Shown: positions 710 through 6,874 of the stretch, piece by piece | Numbering within the stretch: position 1 is the stretch's first letter | Layout of the letters: every line of letters begins with the position of its first letter | Origin: a virus | IMG/VR virus record: IMGVR_UViG_3300021368_000130 | Coordinates: 1 to 28,654 of that record | Length of the DNA stretch: 28,654 nt | Reading direction: 5' to 3' (one strand) | Position numbers and translations under genes: made by a program | Notes under the pieces: generated by a model | What the model was told of the DNA's origin: nothing | The model's database searches: none | What the model saw: the letters and a program-made list of their open reading frames with translations, nothing else

Positions 710-1477
710 TTACTTTTTTTCTGCTTCCTCCTTCATGCCTTTCTTCTTGGCACCGATGATCTTGGAGACCTTCTTACGACGTGCTAGAAGATACTTGTCA
801 GACTTATCGTGGTCACCATCGTTGTCGATGTCCTTGTCTTCCTTACCTACGGGATCAAGTTTCTTCTCGGTGATCTCGTCGCCAGTTGGTTCGTAACCTG
901 CCTTGACGCAGTTGTCAACTGTCTTGCCGCCCTTCTTCTTGGTGCCAGCAAGCTTGTAACCTTTCCAACAAGCTTTACCATCGAGTCCCTTTTCCTTACC
1001 TTCAATAGCATACTCAATGCCATTGAGTTCAAAAGTATAGGACTCTTTCTTCATATTCTTATCTTCCTTCTGACAGCGGGAGCACCCTTTCCCTCCGCAG
1101 TAAGAGCAGGTGTCGCACGATTCCCTCGCAACCACCTTCGTGGTGTCTTTAATCTCTGCTCCGTGAGATTGTTTGACGCCTGCACCGACACGTAGATTGG
1201 TAGCAGGATCAGGAGCACCCGCGCCTTCTTTGGGATCCTTTGTAGAAAAATCATCTTCTTTGTTCTCCTTGCCAGAGAGATCGGGGATAGATGTAGAAGC
1301 GTCAGCACCGCCAGCACGCTCAGGTGTTGCCAGTTCCTTCTTAGGTGGAGCAACTACTTCTTGGATTTGTGAACCCTGGAAACCATCTCCGCCCATCCAA
1401 CGGGTGTAGGAATCCATTAGTGCTTCCGAAAAAGCATCATTATGCTTAAGAGTTGTCGTTGGTTTCTGACGTTCCAT
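710..1477 (-). CDS. Late modular protein: Cys-rich (zinc-ribbon-like) and EF-hand-like segments
   Basis: A 255-residue hydrophilic protein with a modular look. Residues 1-35 form an ordered N-terminus. Residues 40-118 are low-complexity linker rich in Pro, Gly, Ala, Lys and Glu. Residues 121-135 contain CDTCSYCGGKGCSRC, a CxxCxxCx4CxxC metal-site pattern like a DnaJ/rubredoxin-type zinc ribbon. Residues 146-195 hold a small module with CWKGYKLAGTKKKGG and a conserved-looking Cys. Residues 214-230 (DKDIDNDGDHDKSDKYL) resemble a calcium-binding EF-hand or dockerin loop. The C-terminus is very Lys-rich. A perfect TATAAATA late promoter lies 28 bases upstream. Its start overlaps the end of the preceding gene by 32 bases. 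Probably a virion or capsid-associated protein; this is inferred from late expression only. Confidence 0.75.
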   Translation of the reverse strand: MERQKPTTTLKHNDAFSEALMDSYTRWMGGDGFQGSQIQEVVAPPKKELATPERAGGADASTSIPDLSGKENKEDDFSTKDPKEGAGAPDPATNLRVGAGVKQSHGAEIKDTTKVVARESCDTCSYCGGKGCSRCQKEDKNMKKESYTFELNGIEYAIEGKEKGLDGKACWKGYKLAGTKKKGGKTVDNCVKAGYEPTGDEITEKKLDPVGKEDKDIDNDGDHDKSDKYLLARRKKVSKIIGAKKKGMKEEAEKK

Positions 1478-1727
1478 TAGTGAAAATACTTCTTTTCCTC
1501 TCTTTATTTATAGAATCTGTGATATTGACATGACGGATATCTTTAATCCAAGAGCGGAACATCTCTCCCGACTCGCTGATAACAATAGCATAGTTACCAC
1601 CAACACGTTTGATCGTGCCTTTCTCACCAGTCAACGCGGACATAATAATATCTCCCTCCTGGAAAAAATCATCATGTCTTTGCTGCTGTCGCAGTGCTTG
1701 CTCTCTAAGTTTTTTAAAGTCTCTCAT
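1446..1727 (-). CDS. Small KOW/SH3-like protein
   Basis: A 93-residue protein. A charged N-terminal helix (residues 1-20) precedes a beta-rich block, GDIIMSALTGEKGTIKRVGG followed by NYAIVISESGEMFRSWIKDI. The alternation and the GEKGTIKRVGGNY turn are typical of KOW or SH3-like small barrels. The last 25 residues are polar and probably disordered; this part overlaps the late promoter and start of the next gene. The ATG overlaps the stop of the nucleotidyltransferase gene by four bases (ATGA), implying translational coupling to the 1724-4718 cassette. KOW-like domains often bind nucleic acid or ribosomal partners, but no function can be assigned. Confidence 0.7.
   Translation of the reverse strand: MRDFKKLREQALRQQQRHDDFFQEGDIIMSALTGEKGTIKRVGGNYAIVISESGEMFRSWIKDIRHVNITDSINKERKRSIFTNGTSETNDNS
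1505..1512 (-). promoter_or_regulatory. Late promoter (TATAAATA)
   Basis: Exact TATAAATA on the minus strand, 28 bases upstream of the ATG at 1477, inside the 3' end of the 93-residue gene. It should initiate the transcript for the Cys-rich protein and the gene after it. Confidence 0.8.
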
Positions 1728-2293
1728 TTAAAATTAGCAGGCAGGTTCTTTCTAATCTCATCCATCATCATCTTGCAGTCCTTATCATTCATAGATCTAG
1801 GAATACCCTGGCGGAATAATTTGAAATCGTTAGCATGTGCTGCACGTCTCATCTTTGTGCCAGAGATAGCAAAGGTATCTCCGTCAGCATCTCTGCTTCC
1901 TGAAGATTGAATCTCGATACTTCTGAACGAGAAGTCTTTGCCATTGTATTTGTGCAGGAACTGCATAGCATTTACTCTATCAGATCCTACAAGGAACACA
2001 ACTTCATTATATCCTGCCATCATCAGGTCTTGCATGATAGCGACAGGATCTTTTGGTCCCGAATATATTTTACCACGATGTTCTGGAAACATCAAGTTCA
2101 TGTAGTGCAGTTTACGTTCAGGTTTGAGTGGGTTCTTACCCTTCAGATCGAACGACTGAGAAATATAGATCCTATAGTCATGCCCATGCTGACTCGCGAT
2201 GCGTTTCACCCCATCGAAGTTTTCTTTATGTCCTGTAGTAGGTGGTTGGAACCTACCAAAGGTGAAATAACATTTGATGCAGTTTAACGCCAT
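1724..2293 (-). CDS. TxGH-family nucleotidyltransferase (NMNAT/cytidylyltransferase-like)
   Basis: A 189-residue single-domain protein of the HxGH nucleotidyltransferase superfamily. Residues 9-22 (YFTFGRFQPPTTGH) carry the N-terminal strand and the T/HxGH nucleotide-binding motif, with T19-T-G-H22. Residues 143-149 (ISGTKMR) match the C-terminal ISSTxxR motif that binds the triphosphate. Family members transfer a nucleotidyl group from NTP to a phosphorylated substrate (NMN, phosphopantetheine, choline-P, glycerol-P); the substrate here cannot be read from sequence. The middle is Lys/Arg-rich. The ATG overlaps the end of the ligase-like gene by ten bases and its stop overlaps the KOW-like gene, so it belongs to a tight late operon. 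Cyanophage homologues are commonly listed as cytidylyltransferases. Confidence 0.85.
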   Translation of the reverse strand: MALNCIKCYFTFGRFQPPTTGHKENFDGVKRIASQHGHDYRIYISQSFDLKGKNPLKPERKLHYMNLMFPEHRGKIYSGPKDPVAIMQDLMMAGYNEVVFLVGSDRVNAMQFLHKYNGKDFSFRSIEIQSSGSRDADGDTFAISGTKMRRAAHANDFKLFRQGIPRSMNDKDCKMMMDEIRKNLPANFK

Positions 2294-3483
2294 TGTTTCT
2301 GGAGAGTGAAGTTGTTGTAGGCAAACTCTAGTCTGTTGACTAGTTTGATCATGCTGCCGTCCTGGTGGAGAACATATCCCTCAGGTGTAGTCACCTTGTA
2401 TCCGTTCTCAGTCTGGACAAATGTTCTGAATTGTTCAAGGTGGTCCAGTTTATCTATGATCTTTTGCTTGATCAACTGAAATTCTTTATACAAAGCAAGC
2501 ATTGCCTTGAACTTATATACATTGTCTAGTAGATAATTCTCACTCTTGTAGACCAGATTGCACTTCTTCACTCTGTTGGCAGGTGTCTTGATCTTCGCCA
2601 ACTCCTTCTGCATCTTGGCATCGTAGAAGTTTACCAGAGCATTAATAGTCTCATCGATGTTACCAACATTTCGTCTATCTCTAATTTCGGCGTTGAAGAA
2701 TTGCTTAAGATAAGAAGAAATATGGAATTTAGCATCGCCAGTAGTACCAAAGTTAGACACCAAGTCATCTAGAAAGTCCCCACAGATTCTACACATCCTT
2801 TCTATTTTAGCGATGTGTCTGTTTAAGTCAGCTATTTCTGTAGGAGATAGTGTAACTTTGTTAATTGGTGTGTCGTTTTGAATACATGCAACATCTTTAC
2901 TGGAAGGAACCTTAGCACCAGCTCTTGCTTGCATCGACGCCAGTTCATCACCAGTGTAGTGGGTGTGAAAGACAACACCGATCTTTGCTGATTTGATTTG
3001 CTTGCCCAAAGGACTATCTACAGGTGCAGCATAGGTGATTGTATTAGGTCGGAACATATAATACTGGGTTCCGTCTACTGTTTTAGTATCCAGAGTGTCA
3101 TCAGTGAACAGAAGATCACCCTGGATGACACCATCGAAGTCTAGTTCCTGGAAATATTTGAGAGAATACTTGAGTTTGGTTGCTAGATCACCATCATACC
3201 AAATGTCAATCTGCTCATCGCTGTAGCATGTCTTGGGTTCAGTCTTATTAAAGACCGACTTGGTTCCAACAAAGAACATACCTGTTGTAGGAGACTTACC
3301 ACAGATAACTGATGGTGCTCCATCCCATTTTGTCTGCAAAAATCCACTTGCATCTGCTTTTTTGCCCAGCATCTTCATCAATTCCTTCAAGAAATTGACT
3401 GACGCGACACATCCCTCAACTCCATAGTTGAGCATCTCATCCTCTAGGTGTTCTAAGTGCTTGAGTTGTGTTACGTTTGCCAT
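2284..3483 (-). CDS. Putative KxDG covalent nucleotidyltransferase (ligase-like), otherwise uncharacterised
   Basis: A 399-residue protein usually left as hypothetical in related phages, as far as I recall. Reading it shows ligase/capping-enzyme-like motifs in the right order: KWDG at 52-55 (motif I, KxDG, where Lys takes AMP or GMP), VGTKS at 72-76 (possible Ia), DGVIQGDLLF at 117-126 (motif III-like), a hydrophobic strand GVVFHTHY at 169-176 (IIIa-like), TPEGYVLH at 366-373 (motif IV, EGxV) and MIKLVNR at 378-384 (motif V-like). A helical insert of about 140 residues (215-355) separates IIIa from IV, which is unusual. It is translationally coupled to the nuclease-like gene upstream (TAATG) and overlaps the TxGH nucleotidyltransferase downstream. 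Gene is certain; function is inferred from motifs only. Confidence 0.8.
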   Translation of the reverse strand: MANVTQLKHLEHLEDEMLNYGVEGCVASVNFLKELMKMLGKKADASGFLQTKWDGAPSVICGKSPTTGMFFVGTKSVFNKTEPKTCYSDEQIDIWYDGDLATKLKYSLKYFQELDFDGVIQGDLLFTDDTLDTKTVDGTQYYMFRPNTITYAAPVDSPLGKQIKSAKIGVVFHTHYTGDELASMQARAGAKVPSSKDVACIQNDTPINKVTLSPTEIADLNRHIAKIERMCRICGDFLDDLVSNFGTTGDAKFHISSYLKQFFNAEIRDRRNVGNIDETINALVNFYDAKMQKELAKIKTPANRVKKCNLVYKSENYLLDNVYKFKAMLALYKEFQLIKQKIIDKLDHLEQFRTFVQTENGYKVTTPEGYVLHQDGSMIKLVNRLEFAYNNFTLQKQWR

Positions 3484-4718
3484 TACTTTTTGTAGTAATC
3501 TCCGTTGGTATGCGTGGGGTAGACACCACCACTCTTATTTCTGATGTTGAACTTGAACTCGTAAGACTTGGTTTCAAATACAATATCAATACGCTTACCA
3601 GTGCCAGAGACACCACCATAGTTCACTTCTACCTTATTACTTAGGAGAGTAGAAGCGTCATCCATATACTTTCTATCGATTTCATAGAAGTGCAAGGCAG
3701 ATCCAGTGTAGTGACACATCCAATATCCGTATCCTACACCACTGGCGATCAGATCCTCAAGTGCTCTCTTGCCTGACGTGCTTAGGGTAGTCTCTGCAAT
3801 GTGACCAGGGACTGTAGGACCACCAGTTTTACCATAGTTCTCAAAGACATCTAGGAACTTCTGTTCATTGATACCAAACATTTCTAGATAAGTCTTACCA
3901 TCTGCAGGGATCTCTCCTGCCTTCAGTTTTGCCTCGGGGAACAGTGCCAGTTTGTCTCCACCGCTGGAGCGAACACCGCAGTTGAAGAATGATAGTGTGC
4001 TGCCAAACTTGACTGAGAGATATACTTTCTTGCCAGCAACTTCTAATGTAATATCTGTAAGTGTGGAACCAATATCAAGGGTGCTAGCACCACCTGCAGA
4101 GATAATGATACTGCTTCCTTTCTTCTTGAGAGGTCTTGCTTGGTTCTTACCACCCTCTCCAATTGCTTTGGTTGGTGCCTCACCATATGCTGCTGTGAGA
4201 GCACCTACGATTTGTTCTACGTGGTCTTGATATTTTTTGACTGGTTGTCCAGAGCAATAATCAATCAACGCCTGGGTGAGGTCATCCTCATACTGATTAC
4301 CCATGTTGACTTTCTTACCACCTTTGACCTGACCACCAAACTCTCCAGTCTTCTCGAAGTCTGCTAGTTCTAGTTCAAAGTCTCTATTGCTGATTGCTCT
4401 AGGTGTTTCTTTACTGGCAGGAAAGTTGCAAGTAAACTCGATGTTGTTCTGTCCTCGGAAACCTGCTAAGCAGATTGTTTGGAAGAGCATCTTTGCTTCT
4501 GCTTCCTCACTCTTGGACATAGTAACAAAGTCCATGAACTTAGACTTCGTATACTTCTTGCCTTGCTTCATTGTCACCTGAAAACCTGAAACCTCTACGA
4601 TACCAACATCGGTGAGGAATCTATTCTCTTTACCATTCTTGCTCAATGCTTTGTCGAAGAAGGTATCTATTCGGTCTAGATATTTGCCACCATTCCTAGC
4701 AAAGTCTCCTGCTTTCAT
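3483..4718 (-). CDS. Uncharacterised late protein with possible PD-(D/E)XK nuclease core
   Basis: A 411-residue protein. The N-terminal third is a mixed alpha/beta region. Around the centre a conserved-looking core contains NQYEDDLTQALIDY (Glu144 in a helix), then DIGSTLTDITLEVAGKK (Asp222) followed by VYLSVKFGS (Ser235-Val-Lys237). The pattern E...D-x(n)-(E/S)xK in beta hairpins is that of restriction-endonuclease-fold nucleases, with Ser in place of the usual Glu before the catalytic Lys, as in some restriction enzymes. This is suggestive only. It heads the late operon: CTAAATA lies about 25 bases upstream of the ATG, and its stop overlaps the ligase-like gene by one base. The ribosome binding site is weak. 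Confidence 0.75.
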   Translation of the reverse strand: MKAGDFARNGGKYLDRIDTFFDKALSKNGKENRFLTDVGIVEVSGFQVTMKQGKKYTKSKFMDFVTMSKSEEAEAKMLFQTICLAGFRGQNNIEFTCNFPASKETPRAISNRDFELELADFEKTGEFGGQVKGGKKVNMGNQYEDDLTQALIDYCSGQPVKKYQDHVEQIVGALTAAYGEAPTKAIGEGGKNQARPLKKKGSSIIISAGGASTLDIGSTLTDITLEVAGKKVYLSVKFGSTLSFFNCGVRSSGGDKLALFPEAKLKAGEIPADGKTYLEMFGINEQKFLDVFENYGKTGGPTVPGHIAETTLSTSGKRALEDLIASGVGYGYWMCHYTGSALHFYEIDRKYMDDASTLLSNKVEVNYGGVSGTGKRIDIVFETKSYEFKFNIRNKSGGVYPTHTNGDYYKK

Positions 4719-4740: not shown

Positions 4741-4941
4741 CTATTTAGAACGGAGGTTCTTGAGATAATCTTTTTCATTTTGATAGGGATGTTTTTTTCC
4801 CGACCAGATCTCATATCCTTCTACAACATCTGGAATCAACCATTGGTCTACTCGGTAGCAATACTTCCAGTTGACAGGTTGAATACAATTCACAACTACA
4901 ACTTGGAAGAATGCTACCAAGTGGATCCATAGACTTAGCAC
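4741..4941 (-). CDS. Small protein with hydrophobic N-terminus
   Basis: A 66-residue protein starting at a GTG that overlaps the preceding stop (TAGTG), so translation is probably coupled. The first 20 residues (MLSLWIHLVAFFQVVVVNCI) are hydrophobic and could form one membrane segment or an uncleaved signal anchor. The rest is polar and aromatic (NWKYCYRVDQWLIPD, GYEIWSGKKHPYQ). It is the last gene of the polymerase transcript before a late promoter that overlaps its stop codon. I do not recognise the family. Confidence 0.6.
   Translation of the reverse strand: MLSLWIHLVAFFQVVVVNCIQPVNWKYCYRVDQWLIPDVVEGYEIWSGKKHPYQNEKDYLKNLRSK
4742..4748 (-). promoter_or_regulatory. Late promoter (CTAAATA)
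   Basis: The minus strand reads TTCTAAATAGTTC, containing CTAAATA, a motif reported for cyanophage late genes. It overlaps the stop codon of the 66-residue membrane-type gene and lies about 25 bases upstream of the ATG at 4718. It marks the switch from the replication block to the left-hand late block. Confidence 0.65.
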
Positions 4942-5076: not shown

Positions 5077-5484
5077 TTATCGGTCGTCTGCTGCTCGGTT
5101 TTCGCTTTTGAAGACATCGAATTCTCCTCCTGGATAACGCTTCTTGAGTTTGTTTACATTCGTCTCTACAACATCGTCAAATGACACTTCTAGTGCCATG
5201 CAAGCTTGAGCAACATACCACATGATGTCACCCAACTCAATAATAAGATGCTCGCGGTTATCTTCGTTCCAAGGTTTGCCTTGGAATACCATCTTCTTAA
5301 TGATCTCAAGGAACTCACCACCCTCAGCATTAATTCCAACACCAGCAGTAAGGAGTCTCTCAATATTGGCACCTTGTCGATCAAGGTCACCGATACGATC
5401 AGCAAAATCAACAAAGTTTGTACTAGCTTCACTAGTAACTGCTGAAACAAATTCTTGATAACGTTCAAAATTGACTTTAGACAT
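5077..5484 (-). CDS. mazG: MazG-like nucleotide pyrophosphohydrolase
   Basis: A 135-residue single-domain MazG, about half the length of tandem-domain bacterial MazG and typical of cyanophages. The metal-binding helices show NAEGGEFLEIIKKM and HLIIELGDIMWYV, giving the ExxE...ExxD pattern of the all-alpha NTP pyrophosphatase family. The family hydrolyses (d)NTPs to (d)NMP and PPi. Cyanophage MazG was first proposed to act on ppGpp, and later work pointed to dGTP/dCTP. I start it at the ATG at 5484, one base past the helicase stop; an in-frame upstream start would lie inside the helicase gene. It follows gp41 at the end of the replication operon, consistent with nucleotide supply during phage DNA synthesis. 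Confidence 0.92.
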   Translation of the reverse strand: MSKVNFERYQEFVSAVTSEASTNFVDFADRIGDLDRQGANIERLLTAGVGINAEGGEFLEIIKKMVFQGKPWNEDNREHLIIELGDIMWYVAQACMALEVSFDDVVETNVNKLKKRYPGGEFDVFKSENRAADDR

Positions 5485-5485
5485 G

Positions 5486-6874
5486 TTAGATAATAAAGGA
5501 ACTAAATTTGTCGATGCGTTTCTGACGATCTGAGATATCGTCAAACTGATCGGTGGGATCTTCTTGATCCGTGACGGAAAGAGGTACTTCGTCTTCTACA
5601 TTATACAACTTCATCTTGCCTCTGTCAATACCGACAGTAAACTTACGCTGCCATGCCAGATCGTTGTAACGATTCTTCAACTGCTTTACCATGATGCGAC
5701 CAGACTGCTCCAGTTCCTCCGTAGAGATTAGAGCAAACATAAGATCAGCAGTAGCAGGCAAACCAAAAGATTCAGAAGTGTCAGTGAGTTCGACATCGCT
5801 ATTTCCAAATCCTGAACGAGTGGTTTGTGTAGCGGAAACAATTGGAACATCATGTTCACAAGCAAGACCACGCAGTTCTTCAGCAATCGCTTTTACATAC
5901 GTGTATGAGTTTACAATATGACCCTTGTAACGTGAACTTGCACAAATATTTAGATAGTCGATAAAAATGATGTCAGGTTTAAAAGACTTTTTCAACGAGA
6001 GTTCGTTGATGAGTGCTTTAAAATGCCCAACGTGTGCGCTTGCTGTAGGGTATTCTTTAATAATGAGTCTGCCTTCTGTCTTTCTACCAATCTCAGATAC
6101 TCGGGAAGTGAATATCTGCTCTGGTAATGTAGCGATGTCCCGTATGTTGACATTGAGGAGATTAGCGTCAATTCTTTCTGCAATCTTTTCCTCAGACATC
6201 TCACAGGTGACATAAAGAACGTTCTTGCCTTGGGTAAGAGCAGCAGCGGCGCAATGACACATAAATAGAGACTTCCCAACACCAGTGCCAGCGAGAGCAA
6301 TATTAAGCGTCTTATTGGGTAAACCTCCTTTCGTGATCTGATTGAATTTCTCAAGGTCAAAAGGAATCTTCTCTTCATCCTTGTGGTAAAACTCATAGCG
6401 ATCCTCTACATTTTGTACGTAGTCGTGTCCGATGTATTCATCAAATGATACTGCCAAGGCTTCTTGGAGAATGGAGGGTATCGCATCTCGCGAAAGCGTT
6501 TTATCGCCTCCATCTGCGATCTTGATCGAGTGTAAGAGGGCATTGTAGATTGCTCGCTCTTGACACCACTTTTCTGTTCGGTCTCGCAACCAGTCTGTGT
6601 CTGTTGCCTCGTCAGAATATTCCTTAACTTGTTTAACAGACGCTTCGTAAGTTTCTTGGGTGAGATCATTTCTCTGTTGCAATTGTAAAATGACAACCTC
6701 AGCAGTAGGAACCTTGTCATACTTGGTAGAGAAGTCTTCAATCTCTTCAAAGACTACACGCTCAGTGATGTCTTCAAAATAATCTGCCTTGAGAAACGGA
6801 ACTACCTTGCGATAGTAAGTCTCGTTACCAAGAAGGTTACGCAAGATAGTTGTTTCCAGTTTCTCACTCGTCAT
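5486..6874 (-). CDS. gp41: Replicative DNA helicase (gp41, DnaB-type)
   Basis: A 462-residue hexameric 5'-3' replicative helicase of the DnaB/gp41 family, which unwinds the fork and works with the phage primase. Visible motifs: an N-terminal helical domain (1-170), Walker A AGTGVGKS at 195-202, a DnaB-type H1a region [14 protein letters not shown] at 223-236, Walker [10 protein letters not shown] at 302-310, and the H3-like segment [13 protein letters not shown]. Length is close to T4 gp41 (475). The ATG overlaps the uvsX stop by 11 bases and the stop is one base from mazG, so uvsX-41-mazG form one operon. No gp61 primase is in this window. Confidence 0.96.

Follow-up and report, generated by a model that had tools for sequence, protein, structure and literature searches.

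The stretch of DNA analysed here (the window) is a 28,654-nucleotide (nt) virus fragment, IMG/VR record IMGVR_UViG_3300021368_000130. Its source is a Kyanoviridae-type cyanophage, and its closest relatives are the Synechococcus phages Sf-CH11 (95.5% DNA identity), S-RIM44 and S-RIM32. The subject of this study is a cassette of minus-strand genes that begins with a gene for a 411-amino-acid (aa) protein resembling PD-(D/E)XK nucleases, followed by a gene for a ligase-like protein of family DUF6267. The order on this strand is gp43, uvsX, gp41, mazG, a 66-aa open reading frame (ORF), and then the genes for the 411-aa, 399-aa, 189-aa, 93-aa and 255-aa proteins.

A first-pass annotation had described three of these genes as overlapping end to end and as carrying, respectively, a possible PD-(D/E)XK core, ligase-type motifs and a TxGH nucleotidyltransferase motif. 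All three are present with these motifs (minus strand, 4718-3483, 3483-2284 and 2293-1724), and the readings of the individual proteins are borne out by the analyses given below. The 411-aa and 399-aa genes overlap by 1 nt, the 399-aa and 189-aa genes by 10 nt, and the 189-aa and 93-aa genes by 4 nt. The position occupied by the 411-aa gene is hereafter called the slot, and the cassette has the following features.

4742..4748, minus strand: cassette late promoter CTAAATA, 30 nt ahead of the slot-gene ATG (motif position conserved in relatives)
3483..4718, minus strand: 411-aa predicted slot nuclease, phrog_8438 (AlphaFold2 model, fold matches, invariant residues)
2284..3483, minus strand: 399-aa DUF6267 protein, ligase-like (PF19782, AlphaFold2 model, structural matches)
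1724..2293, minus strand: 189-aa HIGH-type nucleotidyltransferase, NadR/NMNAT-like, T4-GC190 orthologue (phrog_3041/395 cytidyltransferase, PDB profile matches)
1446..1727, minus strand: 93-aa KOW-like protein (phrog_4808 and the nucleotidyltransferase-fusion family phrog_395)

The 411-aa protein has a predicted PD-(D/E)XK nuclease fold

Searches of Pfam and NCBIfam give no match for the 411-aa protein, which is assigned to phrog_8438, a family of unknown function, and PDB sequence searches with profiles of the 411-aa, 399-aa and slot families return nothing relevant. An AlphaFold2 model built from 31 relatives, with a mean predicted local distance difference test score (pLDDT) of 90.9, is composed of an N-terminal domain (residues ~1-130) and a PD-(D/E)XK-like domain (~135-411). 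Its best VIA-align match is the HinP1I restriction endonuclease (Z 8.4, root-mean-square deviation 4.3, 190 residues, model residues 135-411), followed by the I-Ssp6803I homing endonuclease (5.8), Hjc resolvases (5.5), Dna2 (5.2) and SwaI (4.7). Ranks 1-11 are all occupied by PD-(D/E)XK proteins, and both Hjc and RecU are found among the lower-scoring fold matches.

The predicted active site is D222-x12-S235-x-K237. Residues N138, G140, E144, D222, S235 and K237 are among those invariant in the 31 relatives, and E144 sits on the first core helix of the model. Given its modelled alpha/beta core fold and a D that is combined with (E/D/Q/S)-x-K, with both D and K invariant, the protein is a predicted member of the PD-(D/E)XK superfamily. 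The motifs of the three cassette proteins are not chance occurrences, because the key residues are invariant in 58 relatives of the 399-aa protein and in 31 of the 411-aa protein, and T19 of the 189-aa protein is nearly so in 18. The key codons of the 411-aa gene are located as follows.

4289-4287, minus strand: E144
4055-4053, minus strand: D222
4016-4014, minus strand: S235
4010-4008, minus strand: K237

The likeness to HinP1I-type enzymes lies in the predicted fold of residues 135-411, with catalytic D and K in the core, and is not detected as sequence similarity. HinP1I carries a Q-x-K or E-x-K motif, whereas the 411-aa protein has S-x-K, an extra N-terminal domain and no adjoining methyltransferase. 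A D12-type methyltransferase is located elsewhere in 13 of 16 genomes. The slot nuclease is not classed as a type II restriction-modification system, for which a cognate methyltransferase would be needed, and defence-system models have no match among the window proteins.

DUF6267 resembles nucleic acid ligases

The 399-aa protein belongs to Pfam family PF19782 (DUF6267, unknown function) with an E value of 2.2e-122. In the AlphaFold2 model, built from 58 relatives (pLDDT 90.5), its nucleotidyltransferase domain holds a helical insertion (~208-350). The top 46 VIA-align rows are all RNA or DNA ligases (Z 7.9-5.1), including the Naegleria RNA ligase (Z 7.9 over 179 residues), T4 Rnl2 (6.4), archaeal RNA ligases and DNA ligase I, and the ligase-type fold is assigned with caution because Z is below 8 throughout. 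Motifs I (K52-W-D-G55), IV (E368-G-Y-V371) and V (K380) can be recognised, with K52, D54, G55, E368, G369, V371 and K380 invariant in the 58 sequences. The same motifs are retained in short forms of ~300 aa that are devoid of much of the helical insertion. The corresponding codons are listed here.

3330-3328, minus strand: K52
2382-2380, minus strand: E368
2346-2344, minus strand: K380

By its motifs and predicted fold, DUF6267 would be a ligase-like covalent nucleotidyltransferase. We use 'ligase-like' and do not claim an RNA ligase because, in addition to the Z values, Foldseek E values are poor and an hhalign comparison with the single sequence of T4 Rnl2 is not significant, with only the EG(F/Y)V motif aligned. 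DUF6267 shares the fold and the K-x-D-G, E-G-x-V and K motifs with Rnl2/Rnl5-like RNA ligases (T4 Rnl2, Naegleria) and with DNA ligases, but it differs from them in having a large helical insertion between the motifs and in that an OB or C-terminal domain is not seen, and from T4 Rnl2 also in the lack of a sequence-level match. A genome collection yields 21 DUF6267 matches, mostly on contigs of marine metagenome-assembled genomes that may be phage-derived.

A hypervariable slot upstream of DUF6267

Searches of phage records by tblastn recover DUF6267 in 467 records and the nucleotidyltransferase in 528, and both are present in 16 of 16 complete cyanophage genomes, in four of which they lie far apart. 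The two outcomes that would have overturned the first-pass annotation, unsuitable predicted folds and a lack of co-occurrence in relatives, were thus not observed, and the co-occurrence is that of DUF6267 and the nucleotidyltransferase. The 411-aa family itself is rare (24 phage records by tblastn). The slot, just upstream of DUF6267, is hypervariable, holding the 411-aa gene in the window and members of about a dozen families, unrelated by BLAST, in relatives.

The slot itself is nearly always filled, as evident by the presence of an upstream gene of at least 200 aa at 199 of the 215 DUF6267 loci with an adjoining nucleotidyltransferase (some contigs overlap). Few or no intact loci with adjoining DUF6267 and nucleotidyltransferase genes are seen to be slot-less. 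Where an upstream gene of this kind exists, it overlaps DUF6267 by exactly 1 nt at 151 of 239 loci. The occupants comprise 157 non-redundant sequences in 25 BLAST clusters, about a dozen of which are linked to the nucleotidyltransferase, and the remaining clusters neighbour stand-alone DUF6267.

An automated motif test, requiring a conserved D plus a hydrophobic residue and then hydrophobic-S-x-K, detects D...S-x-K in 8 of the 10 nucleotidyltransferase-linked slot families with at least three members, and the other two show the motif by eye. Control families from the same loci are positive in none of 12 cases (at least five members) and in one of 21 (at least three members), and this single positive is a fragment of the 411-aa family. 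Invariance in the divergent CL1 family (20 sequences, many with less than 20% identity to the first one) is confined to M1, T107, D207, S253, L254, K255 and N268.

Other families provide further links to known nucleases. All six CL5 members match type II restriction enzyme models (PADLOC REase_II, best 6.1e-11), one of them matches nicking endonuclease models too, and CL12 weakly matches PDDEXK_5. In phage S-CAM7 the gene at the slot position, directly after gp41, is annotated CviJI. The CL5 members and this gene are alike in resembling CviJI or type II (nicking) enzymes, whereas the window's own 411-aa family does not match these models. Chlorovirus restriction enzymes have cognate methyltransferases. 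A nuclease fold common to all slot families is suggested by these motifs, with structure prediction adding to the case for the 411-aa family and profile matches for CL5. The proposal that the slot families form one detectable sequence family was rejected, as profile-profile comparison joined only two cluster pairs.

Several loci depart from the usual arrangement. In S-PM2-like phages, whose DUF6267 either overlaps the nucleotidyltransferase or is joined to it in a fusion, an S-x-K protein is encoded downstream, and the fusion-type loci L111 and L119 carry no slot gene upstream. In S-PM2 (L074:4998-5576, 5467-6777), DUF6267 is split over two overlapping frames, the second of which is fused to the nucleotidyltransferase, and this split could represent a frameshift or a programmed event. 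In phage ACG-2014f (L216:2562-5888), a small PD...ExK protein, a DNA adenine methylase and a sigma factor replace the slot gene upstream of the nucleotidyltransferase.

The slot gene and DUF6267 are exchanged as a block

Two S-RIM44 isolates from Cape Cod Bay are 99.8-100% identical in gp43, uvsX, gp41, the nucleotidyltransferase, the KOW-like gene and nrdA. Their slot genes are unrelated (411-aa type versus CL1) and their DUF6267 proteins are 75% identical. Identity begins to fall at the end of the 66-aa ORF and returns to 100% at the nucleotidyltransferase start. The slot gene and DUF6267 are therefore replaced as a block in S-RIM44, and this block ends exactly at the border between DUF6267 and the nucleotidyltransferase. 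Comparison of the window with locus L045 gives a similar pattern. The upstream border corresponds to the following feature of the window.

4741..4941, minus strand: conserved 66-aa ORF in the mazG/slot interval, upstream border of the exchanged block (S-RIM44 comparison)

The same association is evident across 181 loci. For pairs with nucleotidyltransferase identity of at least 95%, which are non-independent and come from a locus collection biased towards the query family, the median DUF6267 identity is 99.0% for the 133 pairs that share a slot family and 78.5% for the 18 that do not. Therefore, the nuclease and DUF6267 tend to move together. Because this exchange unit leaves the nucleotidyltransferase in place, the three genes do not form a single, indivisible enzyme system. 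As a separate observation, the D12-type DNA methyltransferases of the S-RIM44 pair (L329, L330) are only 81% identical despite the 99.8-100% identity of the core genes.

The novelty of these results lies in the hypervariable slot and in the nuclease-DUF6267 exchange unit. The searchable literature, without most subscription journals and all supplements, contains no report of either, and does not discuss DUF6267 or 'cytitidyltransferase'.

The cassette is very probably expressed late

The first-pass annotation had also assigned the cassette to a late promoter. Taken alone, the CTAAATA motif at 4748-4742 is no more frequent within the window than expected by chance. However, of 153 distinct slot genes, 145 have CTAAATA or NATAAATA in the 80 nt that precede them, across unrelated families and mostly 25-32 nt ahead of the ATG. 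By comparison, 67 of 4000 random 80-mers contain such a motif, and it precedes DUF6267 in 2 of 146 cases and the nucleotidyltransferase in 13 of 163. Because so many slot genes have the motif, and because NATAAATA has been published as the late promoter of such phages (PMC2984593), the slot gene is very probably the first gene of a late operon formed by the cassette.

The nucleotidyltransferase, its KOW-like partner and neighbouring features

The 189-aa protein carries the motifs GRFQPPTTGH (T19-T-G-H22) and ISGTKMR. T19 is nearly invariant in 18 relatives. The nearest PDB profile matches of the family are NadR and the archaeal nicotinamide mononucleotide (NMN) adenylyltransferase MJ0541, and PF01467 is matched by 15 of the 18 members (to 3e-9), with the window copy below the cut-off. 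On the strength of its GxFxPxxxGH and ISxTxxR motifs, the protein is probably a NadR/NMNAT-like adenylyltransferase, with NMN as a putative substrate. It shares G-x-F-x-P-x3-GH and (I/M)S-x-[ST]-K-x-R motifs with NadR and archaeal NMNAT enzymes, but it is only weakly similar to them overall, has a KOW-like partner or fusion, and has an orthologue in virions. Mass spectrometry of purified S-SM1 virions revealed this orthologue, T4-GC190 in the Sullivan nomenclature (PMC3037559), in agreement with the earlier suggestion that the cassette acts at packaging or virion stages.

The gene for the 93-aa protein overlaps that of this enzyme by 4 nt, and the two proteins are fused in many cyanophages (L076, L078, L080). 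The 'KOW-like' label comes only from the look of the sequence, and Pfam gives no match in this protein. Many records and phrog_4808 label it as 'ribonucleotide reductase alpha subunit' or NrdB. We reject this assignment, as the protein is without such a domain and is fused to the nucleotidyltransferase in relatives. In Escherichia phage Sharanji, an Asteriusvirus jumbo coliphage (L218, 4471-5522), a Dam-type methyltransferase gene and that of the nucleotidyltransferase overlap directly.

Two features follow in the same gene cluster, the second of which is tied to the cassette by position only.

1505..1512, minus strand: second late promoter TATAAATA, within the 93-aa gene and ahead of the 255-aa gene
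710..1477, minus strand: low-complexity protein of 255 aa from the next gene of the cluster, containing paired cysteines and two tag motifs that are repeated (phrog_4359, weak matches to several families)

The tag-like motifs, 'DPVGKEDxDINNDGxxDxTDxYLxxRRKAI' and 'CWDxxKxVGxKKKxGKxVPNCV', recur in several low-complexity proteins, namely that of the window (710-1477, minus strand) and downstream proteins in L075, L080, L217, L220 and L223. They are present also in the nucleotidyltransferase fusion of phage Melnitz-2, and they are possibly virion-targeting signals.

Possible functions of the exchanged pair

The reading that we favour, tentatively and in the knowledge that it could well be wrong, is that the slot gene and DUF6267 form a late, exchangeable pair consisting of a restriction-type PD-(D/E)XK endonuclease and a matched ligase-like protein, acting on DNA that is not the phage's own. 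The nuclease would most likely cut the genome of the next host or that of a competing phage, and DUF6267 would most likely limit self-damage by sealing or capping nicks in phage DNA. The neighbouring NMNAT-like/KOW protein presumably ends up in the virion, and the nuclease itself might be packaged as well. An attack on host or rival DNA fits because the nuclease is diverse, quickly exchanged, late and restriction-type, and matched protection or repair fits because the ligase-like partner is co-exchanged. Chlorovirus restriction endonucleases are known to act on host DNA.

Phages in which a nuclease is likewise linked to an Rnl2-type ligase have been described (Iyer et al. 2021, PMC7824862). 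Their HNH-Rnl2 fusions have been proposed to combine repair with an attack on the DNA of a rival or of the host. The cassette differs from these in having separate genes, a restriction-enzyme fold instead of HNH, and a hypervariable nuclease. Cyanomyoviruses are without denA, denB and ndd, and may degrade host DNA by an undescribed route (PMC2984593). A more doubtful proposal is that the locus represents an undescribed phage weapon, in which swapped S-x-K nucleases with matched DUF6267 self-protection would let slot types exclude each other's DNA, or that of the host, without methylation.

Several points weigh against our favoured reading. Foldseek alone gives no match with E < 0.001 for the 411-aa model, and its core carries S in place of the E, D or Q that is usual in most PD-(D/E)XK enzymes. 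Metal-dependent DNA cleavage by the 411-aa protein, and lysyl-AMP formation and strand joining by DUF6267, are predicted activities. No methyltransferase lies next to the nuclease in the cassette. Stand-alone short DUF6267 forms are common in other phages (L244-L303), where they have neither a slot nor a nucleotidyltransferase neighbour, and DUF6267 must therefore have an independent role there. CCGG was considered as the recognition site of the 411-aa protein, since it occurs 0 times in the window versus 14 expected and is missing from six genomes whose slot genes are of the 411-aa type (31-98% identical). It was rejected as a mark specific to this type because phages with CL1, CL2 and CL4 slots have no CCGG either. 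Two further points of this kind are given with the resolvase explanation below.

Other palindromes were surveyed in the whole window and in 60-kb samples of 20 cyanophages (L338-L397). The 4-bp palindromes that are wholly absent are genome-specific: CCGG in most, GTAC in both S-RIM44 isolates, Syn1 and S-SM1, GCGC and CGCG in P-SSM7, and GGCC in S-CAM7. TCGA is missing from both ACG-2014d and S-SSM4, whose slot genes are 84% identical.

The main rival explanation, which we regard as unlikely, is that the slot nuclease stands in for T4 gp49 (endonuclease VII, EndoVII) as the late resolvase of Holliday junctions that these phages otherwise lack, with DUF6267 sealing nicks before packaging and with slot diversity reflecting repeated displacement by unrelated PD-(D/E)XK enzymes. 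A slot nuclease would fill the same roles as EndoVII or DenA/DenB, which are late DNA debranching or host DNA breakdown. The T4 enzymes have unrelated folds, and they are absent from nearly all cyanophages examined or reported. Of 23 genomes just one was found to have EndoVII, RuvC and RusA were found in none of 16, and a late promoter and near-universal slot occupancy suit a late essential function. The fold matches of the 411-aa model include archaeal Hjc and RecU, junction cleavage would be a putative activity, and jumbo phages provide a precedent for swapping resolvase types (PMC7824862). However, the best and longest fold match (190 residues) is the sequence-specific restriction enzyme HinP1I, one slot family is type II restriction enzyme-like, and complete replacement within a species, together with a partner, would be unusual for a housekeeping enzyme.

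We consider it quite improbable that the slot genes are selfish, homing-type endonucleases that cut the locus in rival phages with another allele and use recombination to insert copies of themselves and of DUF6267. T4-like phages offer a precedent for homing enzymes, and the fixed position of the slot, block exchange with sharp borders and the fold match to I-Ssp6803I are all consistent with this explanation. Homing does not readily account for the apparent near absence of empty sites, the slot gene's own late promoter, the frequent 1-nt overlap with the next gene (151 of 239 loci), the accumulation of about a dozen unrelated families at one site, or the inclusion of DUF6267 in the exchanged block.

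Least probable of all is the end-processing or repair system that the first-pass annotation had envisaged, in which the cutter trims RNA or DNA ends, DUF6267 seals them and the nucleotidyltransferase supplies NAD or another cofactor. It is supported in part: the ligase-like fold, the NMNAT-like enzyme and DUF6267-nucleotidyltransferase fusions (L111, L114, L119) agree with it, but the nucleotidyltransferase stays when the nuclease and DUF6267 swap and lies far from DUF6267 in four genomes, and hypervariability is not required of a repair nuclease.

Implications

Exchange of the slot explains why this locus looks unrelated between close relatives, and the two S-RIM44 isolates constitute a natural near-isogenic pair. 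The locus also gives a candidate function to DUF6267 and to phrog_8438, 1462, 3060, 22045, 13937 and 455, all listed as unknown. Few T4-like phages of the ocean are as abundant as the cyanomyoviruses, which break down host DNA without DenA/DenB and debranch DNA without EndoVII. The slot nuclease is a near-universal candidate for either task.

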